A stretch of 64,000 nucleotides of DNA, taken from positions 124,001-188,000 of the forward strand of contig JAFRTE010000019.1 of NCBI GenBank assembly GCA_017427285.1, written 5' to 3'. The number at the start of each line of letters is the position of its first letter. Position 1 is the stretch's first letter. Of this stretch, positions 96 through 15,541 are shown piece by piece. A program made the translations under genes and the position numbers. The notes beneath the pieces are model-generated. The model saw only the letters and a list, made by a program, of their open reading frames with translations, was not told the DNA's origin and did no database searches. The stretch comes from Clostridia bacterium (GTDB lineage: Bacteria; Bacillota; Clostridia; Oscillospirales; UBA644).

Positions 96-2078
96 ATGCG
101 CGACGTAAAAAATGCGAAAACTGATAAAAAAATATCAGAAAAAAAATTGGCTTCGGTATCAGCAGTTTCTACCGATTCCGATTCCGATGCTCGCATTTCT
201 CTGAAAACAAAAAAAGATATGAAAAAGCAGTATAAAAAGGCGGAAAAGATCAAGCACCATTATTTCCGGACTTTTTATTACTCTTTTGCCATCACATTTA
301 TAATCCTCGGTGCAATAGCCATCCTTTACTTCATGTATCAGCAGGATAAAAACGTTTTCGGCTTTGCGGACAGATACTATGATCAGGCAGTTGAACATCT
401 TGAAGCCGGAAACAGATCGCAAGCCGTTGAAGCGCTTAAAGAATGTCTCGAATTCGATCCGGGTCATACAGAAGCGCGGCTGCTGCTTGCTCAGGTATAT
501 GAAGAACTGTCCCGAAACGACGAAGCTGTTAACGTTTTGACGGAAGGTATTGAAATTTCGCCGAGAAACGAAACCTTTTATCAAAAAAAGATTCAGCTCC
601 TTACCAAATCCGATAAAATCTCCGATGCGATGGAGTTTATAAATTCCATTTCGTCCTCCTATATCATTGTTAAGCTTTCCGATACCCGACCCGCAACAGT
701 AGCTATGAGCCCGGACCCCGGAACTTACGATTCATCCGTTCAGGTCGAACTTGTCAGTACGGGCGGCGCAACCATCTACTATACTCTCGACGGTTCTTCT
801 CCCACGACAAAAAGCAGAGTTTACGATCCCGAACACCCCATAGTTATAGATAAGGGAACGGTAACAATAAGAGCGTTTGCAATGAACAAACAAAATATGA
901 TAAGCGACGAATACAGCGCAACTTACCGTATTTACAGCGCAAACTCGGCGTATATCTTTTTGGACGACAAAGTTGAGCAGATGGTCAGAACTTCCATCAA
1001 TAAACCGACCGGAACGATCTATTACAGAGACCTTCAGAATGTAAAGCGCCTTTCGAGCGAAGAAAAAGGCGACGTAAAATATACGGGAAACATTTCTACT
1101 CTTAACGACCTTATCGAAATGGTCAACTTAAATGAGGTTATTCTTGTCAACGAACCGTATATCGAAGATTTTTCACCGCTTTTGCAGCTTAAATCGATGA
1201 CTTCGCTGAATGTTTCCGGGTGCGGGATCGACGACGAAAAAGCAAAACAGATTTACGCAGTTTTGTGGCTTAATATCCTTAAAATGGACGACAATCAGCT
1301 CACCAATATAGACGGCGTAAGAAATATGTCAGTTCTCCGTGAGTTTTCCGCAGCGGGAAACGCTCTTAAAAATGTTTCCGTTATAGGAAATATGACGCTT
1401 TTAAGAAGTCTTAATCTCTCAAACAACCTTATAAGCGATATTTCGTCTTTTTCCAATCTCTCTTCGCTTAAAACACTTGATATTTCAAACAATCTTGTAA
1501 GCGATATATCGTCACTGTCTTATTTGACAATGCTTACCGACCTTAATATCAGCACAAATAACATAAAACAGCTAAACGCTATATCCCGTCTTCAGAATAT
1601 CGAGATTTTAACCGTAAGCAACAATCCGATACTTTATCTGTTACCGATCGAAGAATTTACGTCGCTGAAAACGCTGAAAATAGACGGTACGTCGGTCACA
1701 ACTCTCGGCGCTCTTTCCGATCTTGTAAATCTTGAATCCCTTGACTGTTCACGAACCGCAATAACCGATTTTTCCGCGCTTTCGAAAATGCGTCTTAAAA
1801 CTCTCGTTGCCGCTCAGGCAAATATATCCGATGTCAGCGTCATTTCACTTGCAAACTCTGTTAAAATGCTTGATCTGTCGCTCAATTCAATTTCGGATGT
1901 TTCTCCGCTGTCTACAATGACAAATCTTAATATTCTGAATATTTCCGGCAATCCCGTCTCCAATTTCAGCGTTTTACAGCTTTGTACCACCCTCGAAAGC
2001 ATAACTTGCGCCGGTGTTCCGATAACGTCGGCGGATGAAGCCGCTTTTGCGGGAACAGGGATAAGACTGATCAAATAA
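96..2078 (+). CDS. Membrane-anchored TPR / chitobiase-like / leucine-rich-repeat protein
   Basis: This 660-residue protein begins with a charged, Lys-rich cytoplasmic segment (1-58) and one membrane helix (about 61-81), with no cleavable signal peptide. TPR-like helices follow (about 88-180: repeated alanine and large-residue pattern, 'AVEALKECLEFDP'). Next comes a chitobiase/hexosaminidase C-terminal-like beta domain (about 205-280, 'IYYTLDGSSPT'). The rest (about 330-655) is a tandem of roughly 22-residue leucine-rich repeats of the internalin/SDS22 type ('LRSLNLSNNLISDISS'). I infer a single-pass membrane protein whose repeats act as an extracytoplasmic binding scaffold; no enzyme motif is visible. 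The start follows AAGGAG with good spacing. It lies 21 bases upstream of hflK and is probably in the same transcript. Domain calls are confident; the function is unknown. Confidence 0.85.
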   Translation: MRDVKNAKTDKKISEKKLASVSAVSTDSDSDARISLKTKKDMKKQYKKAEKIKHHYFRTFYYSFAITFIILGAIAILYFMYQQDKNVFGFADRYYDQAVEHLEAGNRSQAVEALKECLEFDPGHTEARLLLAQVYEELSRNDEAVNVLTEGIEISPRNETFYQKKIQLLTKSDKISDAMEFINSISSSYIIVKLSDTRPATVAMSPDPGTYDSSVQVELVSTGGATIYYTLDGSSPTTKSRVYDPEHPIVIDKGTVTIRAFAMNKQNMISDEYSATYRIYSANSAYIFLDDKVEQMVRTSINKPTGTIYYRDLQNVKRLSSEEKGDVKYTGNISTLNDLIEMVNLNEVILVNEPYIEDFSPLLQLKSMTSLNVSGCGIDDEKAKQIYAVLWLNILKMDDNQLTNIDGVRNMSVLREFSAAGNALKNVSVIGNMTLLRSLNLSNNLISDISSFSNLSSLKTLDISNNLVSDISSLSYLTMLTDLNISTNNIKQLNAISRLQNIEILTVSNNPILYLLPIEEFTSLKTLKIDGTSVTTLGALSDLVNLESLDCSRTAITDFSALSKMRLKTLVAAQANISDVSVISLANSVKMLDLSLNSISDVSPLSTMTNLNILNISGNPVSNFSVLQLCTTLESITCAGVPITSADEAAFAGTGIRLIK

Positions 2079-4849: not shown

Positions 4850-5548
4850 TTATTCGTTTTTCAATGCTTCGTACGCTTCCGCGATCGCCGCCTCATTATA
4901 CGGTTTAACAATAAATTTTCCGAAAATCGGGACAATACAACTTAAAATATACCAACCGGCAAAGGAAAGATTTAAAACGAATAATTCAAACTTATGTCCG
5001 TCTGTCATGCCCTTGCTTTTTTTCAATGCCTCTTTCCAGCCGATGTCGGGATTTTCTGCGGCAATATACGGAACAAAACGGAAAGTATACGAAAGATAAA
5101 TACCCGGAATAATCAGCAAATATCCGGCAAACAATATAATATTTCTTGCAAGCATTATCTTCAATACCTGCTCATAACGTCCTTCTCTGAATATGTTGAA
5201 CGCATAAGAAGCCTTAAAAGAATCTTTTCTCGCTTTGATAAAAAAGTTTGCTTTTGCCACGCTTAACGGTCCGACAAAAAACACAGCAAATACGGCAAGA
5301 AGCAAAACAGAAGCGGCAATAGAAATATAATAAAGAATATCTTCCGATATAACATTTTCGGAAAATCCGATTTTTTCGATATTTAAATCAGGATCAGAAG
5401 GTCTGTAAAATAAGATCGTTAAAATAAATGAGATCTCAGCTCCGAGACGTCCAGTAACGGTATGATACACAAAGCAAAACAGAATTGCCGAAGAATAATT
5501 CTTTTTCAATACGTTTTTTGCGTTAAGCTTTAATTCACTTCTGTTCAT
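4850..5548 (-). CDS. DUF975 family integral membrane protein
   Basis: The product is 232 residues long. It starts 'MNRSELKLNAKNVLKKNYS', the typical opening of DUF975 proteins, and has about five hydrophobic segments separated by a charged central loop. The frame stays open for 65 more codons upstream, but that part lies over two tRNA genes. The chosen ATG (5546-5548) has an AAAGGAA ribosome site directly before it. The gene follows the two tRNAs on the same strand, 58 bases after tRNA-Pro, with no obvious terminator between, so it may share their promoter. DUF975 proteins are membrane proteins of unknown function, common in Firmicutes. Confidence 0.8.
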   Translation of the reverse strand: MNRSELKLNAKNVLKKNYSSAILFCFVYHTVTGRLGAEISFILTILFYRPSDPDLNIEKIGFSENVISEDILYYISIAASVLLLAVFAVFFVGPLSVAKANFFIKARKDSFKASYAFNIFREGRYEQVLKIMLARNIILFAGYLLIIPGIYLSYTFRFVPYIAAENPDIGWKEALKKSKGMTDGHKFELFVLNLSFAGWYILSCIVPIFGKFIVKPYNEAAIAEAYEALKNE

Positions 5549-5606
5549 TTGAATTCCTTTATTATAAAAATAAGTCGGCCACCTACGGAAGTAGATGACC
5601 GACTTA

Positions 5607-5683
5607 TGGTCCGAGCGGCGGGAGTTGAACCCACGGCCTCTTGAACCCCATTCAAGCGCGCTACCAAACTGCGCTACGCCCGG
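5607..5683 (-). tRNA. tRNA-Pro (anticodon GGG)
   Basis: The reverse complement folds as a complete 77-nt cloverleaf. The acceptor pairs CCGGGCG with CGCTCGG, the D arm begins TAGCGCAG, and the anticodon stem CTTGA/TCAAG encloses loop ATGGGGT (anticodon GGG). A GTTCAAC T loop is present, discriminator A, and the 3' CCA is encoded (5607-5609). It lies 15 bases downstream of tRNA-Thr in the same transcript. Confidence 0.95.
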
Positions 5684-5698
5684 ACAGGGGGGATACAA

Positions 5699-5774
<76 letters not shown>

Positions 5775-11420: not shown

Positions 11421-11467
11421 TACAGTGATTTTTGCTATGACAAATCTGTGAATATTTCTTTTTGGGA

Positions 11468-11496
11468 TTGACAAATAACCACTGTTGTGATATTAT
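11468..11496 (+). promoter_or_regulatory. Promoter of the VanY-like gene
   Basis: TTGACA (11468-11473), a 17-base spacer and TATTAT (11491-11496), with an extended TGa just before the -10. The predicted leader is about 40 bases and contains the GAGGTG ribosome site of the next gene. Confidence 0.75.
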
Positions 11497-11541
11497 TATT
11501 TAAAGAAAAGCTGAATCATTTAAATACCGAGGTGAAGCGGA

Positions 11542-12450
11542 TTGAACGGAAAATCTCTAAGCGAACCGATGACGATCGGACTTATTGCGATTGTTTGCGT
11601 TGCGTTTGTGCTTTCTGTTTTCTGCTTTGCCTCGATGTTTGTTTTCAACAAAGAAAGCAGTCTGACAATAGACGGCGAATCCGGTACGGATAACCCAGAA
11701 AATGAAAATGAATATCCCGGAGCAGACCCTGAAACCGTTGCCAAGATCGAATCTCTGAAAAGCGAGATTGCGGTTTACGATAAAATATTGGCGTCTGACT
11801 ACATGCTGCTTGTAAACAAGGAGCATCCGCTTCCGGAGGGCTACAGCCCTTCAAGTCTGATCGACACCGAATCGAATCCCGCTTTAAAACTTGAAACCGT
11901 TGCCGCAATCAAAATCCAGGAATTTATAAATGCGGCAAAAGAGGCGGGGTATTCCTGCAAGGTCGTTACCGCATACAGATCAAACGCCGAACAGGAAGCT
12001 GTTTACAATTTTGCATATCAGAGCGAGATCAATGCCGGATATACATCCGAAGAAGCGGAAGCTAGGATAGGCCTTTCGGTCGCCAAACCGGGATACAGTG
12101 AGTTTGAAACTGGATATACGGTTTGTATCGCGGAAAACTCCTCTGTTACAAAAGAGGAAATGCTCGAATCAGATCTTTATAAGTATATATCCGAAAATAT
12201 TTATAAATACGGTTTCATCCTTCGCTATCCCGAGGGTAAGCAGGATATTACAGGATATGAATTTGATCCGTTCTGTTACCGTTATATAGGCGATGAAGGC
12301 GTTGCCGACGGTGTTCTTACTATGAGTCATGCGCAATATATTTACGAAAAAAACTTTTCTTTTGAAGAGTATATCGATTATCTGACGGCTAAACGCGCAT
12401 ATGCAGAACAAAATTTAAATGTATCTACTGCCGATACCGATCGGCATTGA
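11542..12450 (+). CDS. VanY/LdcB-like D-Ala-D-Ala carboxypeptidase fold, catalytically degenerate
   Basis: This 302-residue protein has an N-terminal membrane anchor (about 12-34), a spacer, then an M15B/VanY domain: 'LLVNKEHPLPEGY', 'VTAYRSNAEQEAVYN', 'GYSEFETGY' and 'YGFILRYPEGK'. Active VanY and LdcB enzymes read SExxTGxxxD with His after SE, and EPWH near the end. Here the first His is Phe188, the Asp is Cys195, the catalytic Glu is Asp242 and the last His is Cys245. All zinc ligands and the general base are gone while the surrounding fold is kept. I infer a peptidoglycan-binding or regulatory pseudoenzyme at the outer membrane face. The start is TTG with GAGGTG seven bases before it. Confidence 0.85.
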   Translation: MNGKSLSEPMTIGLIAIVCVAFVLSVFCFASMFVFNKESSLTIDGESGTDNPENENEYPGADPETVAKIESLKSEIAVYDKILASDYMLLVNKEHPLPEGYSPSSLIDTESNPALKLETVAAIKIQEFINAAKEAGYSCKVVTAYRSNAEQEAVYNFAYQSEINAGYTSEEAEARIGLSVAKPGYSEFETGYTVCIAENSSVTKEEMLESDLYKYISENIYKYGFILRYPEGKQDITGYEFDPFCYRYIGDEGVADGVLTMSHAQYIYEKNFSFEEYIDYLTAKRAYAEQNLNVSTADTDRH

Positions 12451-13636: not shown

Positions 13637-15541
13637 ATGAAAAAACTGTTTTTTGCCGTCTTTTTTATTTTTCTGATAATAGTGGTAAGCTCGTGTTCGA
13701 CAACCGAACAACGGGTAGACCGTCTTTACGCCAAAATGGAAGAGATCGAATCCCTCCTTGCAGATTCAGCTCTATCTTCTGACGAACAAAATTCACTTTT
13801 ATCATCGCTTGATAAAATAAAACTGGAAATATCGGATGCAATTACGGAGTTCGCTGTCGATATTTCACCTGACAGCATCGATTTGATCGCTATTCCGTAT
13901 AATTCAAGCGATTTAAACAAGCTCGGAGAGTGGTATTATTCAAATCTTGTTTATCCTTTATACTGTTATGAGAGCGATTACGCTCCATTATATGTCAGGG
14001 ACGGCGAGAACTTTACTTCGCAGGAAAAATTCAACATAATCAGTTATCACTTATATAATACTTATTCGTCACTTCTCGATCAAAAATATTCATACCTGAA
14101 TCTTGATGCGGATTCGGCGGATAAAATCTCGCTTTCCGTTTTCGGCGAAGAATTGGATAAAACGTCGATATCGGAGTATTCGGAAATAAGCAACAGCTAC
14201 AGGATTATGCCTCCTTTAAGTGAAAACCGTCTTTTAACTCCGATTTTTGATGGGATCAAAATACGGGATGTTACAAAAACAGAATTAACCGTCCATTATG
14301 CTGAGCAGACCAACACCCGCGTTATTTATTCGGAAATATTCGTTTTTGAAAAAACGGGTGATAATCTTTTTTATCTATACTCAAGAGTAAGAAAAAATCA
14401 GAGTATTTCTCTTACTGATTTATCGGGGTCCGAAGTATCACAGGAAAGCATTTATATCCCCGAGTTTGTAATCTCTCTTCCCGACCCCGACGGTTATTCC
14501 GATAATATCACGGTATCCTATTTCCTTCTTGATTATTACTGTTCAGCAATCGACAACTATTCCGGCAATATTATCGCTTACAAACCTCTTTCCGTTCGTT
14601 CTCTTCTCAATATGATTATTTTACTGCAGCCGCAGATCGACTTATTAATTGCAAATATTGCCGATGAATATCAGTATTTTGGCATTCCATCAGAGTTTTT
14701 TAACGAACAGGTCTCGCAGTATTTCGGAAACAGTTTTTCGTTAGACGAAAGCAAAGATGAATTTTACGATGAAAGTCTTGACCTCTATTTATATCAAATA
14801 TCAGAAATATCGAAAGTACAATATACAAAACAGGTGCTTTCTCTCGATATATTGGAAAACGGATATGTTCGCATGGAAACAGCGCTTTTTGCGCCAAACA
14901 GTTATTCTGAGTTAATAGCAAAAGAAGTGGTTGTTTTTAGCGATAATAAAGACGGAACATATTCTGTTTTCAGCAGACATTACAATATGCATACCGCGTC
15001 GGTCATCAATTCCGTTGTGGCGGATACCGTTCCGTTATTTCCCGAAATATATCCCGATACGTCGGTTTCAGATATTACAAAGGGCGTCTGGTTATATAAA
15101 AATTACGGTTCGCTTCTTGATTTTGAGTTCGATTCGGTCAGTCTTATTTCATCGGAACTTTTAGCCGATTTCGCAGTCGAACGTCTTTTTGAAACTCAGG
15201 AATTTCAAATGTTTGCAGATAACAGCTGCATCGCTTTCCCGAAAGCGCTCGTTAAAGAGGAAGTACGTCTTTATTTCGGCAATGCTGTATTTATACCTGA
15301 AATGGTCTCATATTATGATCTATCAACTGAAATGTTCTACGTCAATGTCTGGACGCCCGATAAAAACGATACCTCCGGTACCGTAATCAGCGCCGGAGGT
15401 TCATCGGGTAGTTTATTCAAAGTATATATCGAAAAATCATCAACACACAAAAATACAGTCAACGAGCAGTATATTCTTACTTTCAACGAACTGTCAAACG
15501 GCTCATTCAGATTTGTCTCAGCGGTTACCACCAAGCAATAA
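13637..15541 (+). CDS. Putative lipoprotein with three related internal modules
   Basis: This 634-residue protein has a lipoprotein signal peptide with lipobox VSSC (lipidated Cys20) and a Glu/Ser-rich helix (about 25-70). After that, three stretches share a pattern: 'ISLSVFG' with a Tyr-rich tail (about 164-190), 'VSQYFGNSF' (about 359-390) and 'VRLYFGNAV' (about 543-572). Each is followed by a strand-rich segment ending in an 'F..DG.YSV.SR'-like motif (for example about 240-252 and 434-448). The motif spacing is 194 and 184 residues. I recognise no known family. The protein is probably anchored on the outer membrane face. There is no visible Shine-Dalgarno, and a terminator hairpin ends 12 bases before the ATG. 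The last 24 bases overlap the convergent NUDIX gene. Confidence 0.8.
   Translation: MKKLFFAVFFIFLIIVVSSCSTTEQRVDRLYAKMEEIESLLADSALSSDEQNSLLSSLDKIKLEISDAITEFAVDISPDSIDLIAIPYNSSDLNKLGEWYYSNLVYPLYCYESDYAPLYVRDGENFTSQEKFNIISYHLYNTYSSLLDQKYSYLNLDADSADKISLSVFGEELDKTSISEYSEISNSYRIMPPLSENRLLTPIFDGIKIRDVTKTELTVHYAEQTNTRVIYSEIFVFEKTGDNLFYLYSRVRKNQSISLTDLSGSEVSQESIYIPEFVISLPDPDGYSDNITVSYFLLDYYCSAIDNYSGNIIAYKPLSVRSLLNMIILLQPQIDLLIANIADEYQYFGIPSEFFNEQVSQYFGNSFSLDESKDEFYDESLDLYLYQISEISKVQYTKQVLSLDILENGYVRMETALFAPNSYSELIAKEVVVFSDNKDGTYSVFSRHYNMHTASVINSVVADTVPLFPEIYPDTSVSDITKGVWLYKNYGSLLDFEFDSVSLISSELLADFAVERLFETQEFQMFADNSCIAFPKALVKEEVRLYFGNAVFIPEMVSYYDLSTEMFYVNVWTPDKNDTSGTVISAGGSSGSLFKVYIEKSSTHKNTVNEQYILTFNELSNGSFRFVSAVTTKQ

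Follow-up and report, generated by a model that had tools for sequence, protein, structure and literature searches.

The gene at 11542-12450 on the + strand of the window (the whole 64,000-nucleotide stretch that was analysed) encodes a 302-residue protein with the fold of M15B carboxypeptidases and a catalytic centre from which every zinc ligand and the catalytic Glu have been lost. Judged from its sequence, the product is probably a pseudo-carboxypeptidase anchored in the membrane, which would bind stem peptides ending in D-Ala and leave them uncut. By computation we find the fold, the missing catalytic residues, an orthologue in every one of the 20 family genomes, purifying selection, retention of the pocket letters and coexistence with canonical VanY; that the protein lacks activity, lies outside the cell and has such stems as its ligand, we infer. 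The gene call is backed by the ORF list, Pfam, structural relatives and alignment, and its TTG start by one relative with ATG at the same codon.

Fold and catalytic centre

Pfam VanY (PF02557) matches residues 116-251 with an E value of 1.3e-24 (87 bits against a cut-off of 25), and the relatives found in the PDB by sequence are YodJ/LdcB, VanYB, VanXY and DacB. Scores against the NCBIfam models fall below their cut-offs (vanXY, 82.6 bits versus 250; vanY_BG, 82 versus 400; LdcB, 60.9 versus 275). A Pfam scan to E 1 returned only VanY and two sub-threshold hits (DUF4120 and Nif11), and hence no M23 domain. A first full-length model, based on 8 close sequences, was poor (pLDDT 51.7). An AlphaFold2 model of the core, residues 79-302 (11776-12447, + strand), reached a pLDDT of 90.1 and a pTM of 0.86. 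One caveat here is that 8 of its 14 input sequences were added IMG/VR rows with intact catalytic sets, and hence the modelled pocket may lean towards those rows. With Foldseek used for ranks, the core model superimposes on VanXYc (4oak; Z 24.7, rmsd 1.8, 185 residues aligned), VanYB (5zhf; Z 24.6, rmsd 1.4, 177 aligned) and LdcB (4ox3; Z 23.1, rmsd 2.2, 187 aligned). The VanY/LdcB-like identity proposed in the earlier note is thus borne out by the Pfam match, the PDB relatives and the core model, with Z near 24 for VanXYc and VanYB. Two scans of viral sequences, which gave 7 and 4 loci, led nowhere.

Residues 9-34 (11566-11643, + strand) form a hydrophobic stretch that is helical in the low-confidence full-length model. 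This predicted membrane helix may serve as a signal anchor, or possibly as a signal peptide, and the VanY-fold domain would lie outside the membrane.

Alignment to canonical members places Phe188, Cys195, Asp242 and Cys245 at the positions of the zinc ligands His and Asp, the catalytic Glu and the third ligand, His, exactly the replacements that had been read from this sequence before. None of the four residues that define an active VanY/LdcB enzyme is therefore present. In the first metal motif (12097-12126, + strand), Ser186 is kept while Phe188 and Cys195 stand in for ligands; in the second (12265-12276, + strand), DPFC at 242-245 replaces EPWH, with the Glu, the Trp and the zinc His all gone. 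The fold markers AYRSNAEQ (144-151) and GFILRYP are intact in the alignment, as the earlier note had said.

All 20 GTDB family genomes examined, 10 of them from the same genus, carry one orthologue each at E<=1e-30. Every one of these orthologues has lost the catalytic Glu. All three zinc ligands are lost in 12, two are kept in one, and all three are kept in seven. The signature at positions 188, 195, 242 and 245 is F or Y, C or S, D, C in seven genus members and S or A, E, S, I or L in the other three; it is Y, E, N, V in g4, F, E, N, V in g5, Y, D, M, H in g6, H, D, S, H in g3, H, D, K, H in g2 and H, D, N, H in five members of g7. The prediction that orthologues would share the substitutions holds for the Glu in 20/20, but not for the particular letters F/C/D/C, which vary, nor for the zinc ligands in the seven relatives that keep all three. 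This gradation suggests that loss of the Glu came first, followed in some lines by loss of the zinc ligands.

In a first tree, the 21 degenerate rows group together with 94/97 support, in 92% of bootstraps; they stand for the 20 family genomes plus an additional record with the same sequence in this region. A canonical VanY is also present in each of the 20 genomes, and the genome of the window has two (L001 and L002), the canonical status of part of these being judged by the motifs SEH..D and E.WH.R. Elsewhere in the order, 76 of 80 further VanY loci, taken from among the matches listed, keep H/D/E/H. Since the family orthologues lack the Glu in 20/20 cases and these other loci are intact in 76/80, the degenerate site is more than chance. 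The four non-canonical loci are L199, L207, L214 and L232, of which L214 and L232 repeat genes of family f23, described below. L199 and L207, from family f26, are further degenerate VanY copies (YDAH and HDKH) that fall outside both clades considered here.

The stem-peptide pocket and possible roles

In the LdcB study (PMC4087270), Arg120, which is Arg or Lys in LdcB orthologues, forms a salt bridge with the product carboxylate; recognition of the terminal D-Ala is attributed to Gln125 and Ser151, and Tyr191 and Tyr201 pack against this D-Ala; Trp206 moves on ligand binding; and Glu204 touches the D-gamma-Gln of the stem. Spacing and alignment place the pocket equivalents in the window protein at Arg146 and Gln151 (11977-11994, + strand), Ser186, Tyr229 and Tyr239; all are present, and the Arg/Gln/Ser set at the stem-peptide end is thus complete. 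Across the family, Arg is kept in 18/20 (the other two have Lys), Gln in 20/20, Ser in 19/20 and Tyr229 in 18/20. The Tyr201 equivalent is Tyr in 14/20, in a column that is variable in canonical rows too, and the Trp206 equivalent is Trp in only 2/20.

Set beside LdcB/DacB and YodJ, which are L,D-carboxypeptidases, the window protein keeps the equivalents of Arg120, Gln125, Ser151 and Tyr191, whereas those of His153, Asp160, Glu204 and His207 are all replaced. VanYB and VanXYc (D,D-carboxypeptidase and dipeptidase of Peptidase M15B) have the same fold, and VanYB rows share the Arg, Gln and Ser letters; in contrast to them, the window protein lacks the zinc ligands and the catalytic Glu, has Phe for Trp and carries an insert after the RY-G motif.

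The mechanism that we favour would run as follows. One N-terminal helix would hold the protein in the membrane with its domain outside the cell. Cutting would be impossible in the absence of the zinc ligands and the catalytic Glu, and Arg146, Gln151, Ser186 and Tyr229 would hold the C-terminal end of the stem peptide. D-Ala-ended stems would thus be bound and left uncleaved, and the state of the wall would be reported; alternatively, the output could be that active carboxypeptidases and autolysins are placed or held back. Some observations temper this scheme. The pocket is not wholly preserved, since Trp is seldom found at the Trp206 position. Because Glu204 of LdcB is itself in contact with the stem, at its D-gamma-Gln, binding should weaken where the Glu is lost. 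In addition, the retained Arg, Gln and Ser could be structural rather than binding residues.

Taken together, dead catalysis, kept pocket letters, a kept gene and canonical paralogues in the same genome suggest that the protein either binds D-Ala-ended stems without cleaving them or regulates active enzymes as their partner, two roles that are compatible with each other. In its pure form, the second role would be that of a regulatory pseudoenzyme acting by protein-protein contact, with the dead cleft or the C-terminal region controlling an active VanY or autolysin and no peptide ligand involved. We regard this as possible but rather unlikely. Partners would be at hand in the canonical VanY copies of all 20 family genomes, and a precedent exists in the degenerate LytM protein DipM, which binds and stimulates autolysins through a groove (PMC10336132). 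Moreover, the C-terminal segment 262-280 (SHAQYIYEKN.SFEEYIDY) hardly varies among the eight closest sequences. However, such a role would not require that Gln, Ser and Arg be kept while the metal centre drifts.

Genomic context counts against this role and against the stem-binding scheme alike, as no gene neighbour common to all the family contexts read was found. The gene lies between an upstream ABC exporter gene pair and a downstream Gfo/Idh/MocA oxidoreductase gene, and seven of the 10 genus genomes have the exporter pair and the oxidoreductase on its flanks. In the stretches read, some of them short or ending early, we found none of the window's neighbours in the other three genus genomes or in 9 of the 10 other family genomes; the oxidoreductase is kept beside the orthologue in one further genus (L071). 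The exporter pair and oxidoreductase are ruled out as obligate partners by their absence from most of the other family stretches read. Otherwise the neighbours differ between family contexts, and the context points to no particular partner.

Three other features were seen in the window. The + strand gene at 13637-15541 encodes a predicted lipoprotein-like protein of 634 residues with no Pfam match; two relatives have a homologue at this position (48-50% identity), and none was found there in four others whose contexts span it. At 96-2078 (+ strand), one protein combines TPR repeats, a chitobiase C-terminal-like domain and leucine-rich repeats. Two adjacent tRNA genes at 5610-5774 (- strand) overlap the start of a listed DUF975 ORF (4850-5743), the true start of which probably lies further in.

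Compared with the stem-binding role, it is very improbable that the protein is still an enzyme, working through an alternative metal site (from Cys195, Asp242 and Cys245, for example) or by metal-free carboxypeptidase chemistry. Cys195 and Cys245 do occupy two ligand positions in the window protein, and a metal site built on them had been named in the earlier note as what would overturn its reading. But Cys is found at 195 in only 5/20 family members and at 245 in only 7/20, and in close relatives position 195 is Ser or Glu, while position 245 is Ile, Leu or Val. With the cysteines so poorly conserved, we consider a Cys-metal enzyme unlikely and reject a conserved metal site built on Cys; conservation thus gives no backing to the objection that the earlier note foresaw. 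The seven relatives with three zinc ligands and no Glu could be weakly active, because the E204A variant of LdcB keeps residual activity; the same source reports LdcB to be inactive with EDTA, which speaks against the enzymatic reading (PMC4087270).

Conservation of the gene and its upstream region

For the core, pairwise dN/dS among close relatives (NG86) was 0.014-0.084 in the 10 of 21 pairs for which it could be computed, dS being saturated in the other 11. These ratios are rough because nine of the ten have dS above 1; the single pair with low dS (0.377) gives 0.022.

To the family alignment we added a count over the 20 columns that are >=95% conserved in 144 intact-set rows, which were intact by selection and in some cases near-identical. 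The five columns of the catalytic centre (188, 195, 242, 245 and Trp244, a set picked with the alignment already in view) retain the conserved residue in 25 of 100 family cells, versus 255 of 300 for the other fifteen. Of the 15504 possible choices of five columns, 15 score as low as the catalytic centre, or 104 when nine family representatives are used. Among the other fifteen, Trp215 is kept in 0/20, with Tyr or Phe instead. L199, L207 and the duplicates L105, L111, L112, L114, L214 and L232 were dropped before these family and column counts. Catalytic loss is thus selective, with the centre gone and the remaining conserved columns mostly kept. These data agree with two arguments made before, that the substrate-end residues have been kept while the catalytic centre was lost, and that the gene is under purifying selection rather than in decay. 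The earlier interpretation is thus supported in part, with a stem-peptide sensor as a putative role.

The upstream region is conserved as well. A predicted sigma-70 promoter at 11468-11496 (+ strand), TTGACA-17-TATTAT with an extended TG before the –10 element, matches the consensus at 11 of 12 positions. Its –35 TTGACA is invariant in 7/7 aligned relatives and the –10 TATTA is found in 5/7. The earlier claim that the gene has its own strong promoter gains from this match and from the invariant –35, but the region as a whole holds 4 promoter-like sites versus a mean of 3.5 in shuffles, which is no excess. Downstream, GAGGTGA at 11529-11535 (+ strand) is a probable ribosome-binding site, within which GAGGTGAA is invariant in 7/7 relatives. 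Upstream of the promoter lies the element TGACAAAtcTGTGAAtaTTTC (11438-11458, + strand), in which TGACAAA and TGTGAA are invariant in 7/7 aligned relatives, and which is a possible operator or upstream promoter element. Its TGACAAANNTGTGAA has one exact match in its own genome, the 11438-11458 site itself; with this and four one-mismatch matches, versus two control matches, a regulon was not found in that genome.

That the gene is a pseudogene or a relict in decay is scarcely credible, for although the catalytic residues are gone, the frame is intact in its own genome, the –35 and ribosome-binding site are conserved in 7/7 relatives, and orthologues in 20/20 family genomes together with the low core dN/dS rule out sequencing error or decay.

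A second degenerate clade and known inactive peptidases

A class-wide profile search brought up a VanY copy in another family of the same order (L114, genome G093, family f23) with S, V, S, C at the four positions. Searching f23 with this sequence gave matches in 120 of 200 genomes at E<=1e-25, from which we read 30 loci (L124-L153), among the best 32 places by similarity to the pseudo copy; we therefore claim no prevalence. The zinc His at 188 is lost in 30/30 of these copies, Asp195 is kept in 5/30, Glu242 in 5/30 and His245 in 10/30. Over the five catalytic-centre columns, 20 of 150 cells hold the conserved residue, as against 387 of 450 over the other fifteen. These copies keep Gln in 29/30 and Arg in 1/30; loss of the Arg here shows that not every pseudo-VanY retains the pocket.

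A second tree comprised 16 of the 20 family members and a selection of canonical rows (18 chosen randomly), and several of its deep branches are weak. In it the f23 copies form a separate clade (support 100/100), and the window's group (99/83) is placed next to canonical rows from families f19 and f20 (92/84). A common origin of the two pseudo clades was rejected, as the tree has two changes and joins the clades in 4% of bootstraps. The topology favours two independent catalytic losses in the order. We read the contexts of 20 f23 copies (L234-L253). Within 6 kb of the gene, 15 of them have dnaG, 14 a dgt-like HD gene, 12 rpoD, 12 pyruvate kinase and 11 a yigZ-like UPF0029 gene; the f23 gene often lies near UPF0029-dgt-dnaG-rpoD, with pyruvate kinase on the other side.

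Dead peptidoglycan peptidases are already known as regulators in the M23/LytM family, in which EnvC, NlpD and SpoIIQ are further inactive proteins. That is a different peptidase family, to which the window protein has no match. In the inactive LytM protein DipM, as in our reading of the window protein, a dead peptidoglycan-peptidase fold is kept for regulation (PMC10336132). Closer in family is the Sonic hedgehog signalling domain, an animal M15 homologue in which binding takes place at the pseudo-active site, according to the available part of a review of inactive metallopeptidases (PMC11266112). Hedgehog keeps its zinc, whereas the window protein keeps no zinc ligand and 7/20 relatives keep all three. 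The fold match to hedgehog is weak (2ibg_G; Z 6.3, rmsd 3.6, 113 aligned) and may mean merely a common arrangement. Hedgehog of animals is the sole entry for family M15 in the same part of that review (PMC11266112), and among the matches listed in the open-access literature searched we found no description of a bacterial M15 pseudoenzyme. MEROPS lists non-peptidase homologues, and dead M15 sequences as such are therefore not new to databases.

We tentatively propose, at lower confidence than for the window protein itself, that dead M15B carboxypeptidases are recurrent in this order of gut Clostridia, and that at least two lineages may independently have converted a VanY paralogue into a membrane-anchored protein that reads stem ends without cleaving them, one of them family-wide and the other, in f23, often near dgt-dnaG-rpoD. 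The graded loss in the window's family, with the Glu gone from all members and the zinc ligands from a subset, alongside canonical paralogues, provides a natural series for the VanY fold without catalysis. If D-Ala-ended stems are indeed bound, the protein would act as a sensor of the wall in gut bacteria and might bear on their response to glycopeptides and beta-lactams.
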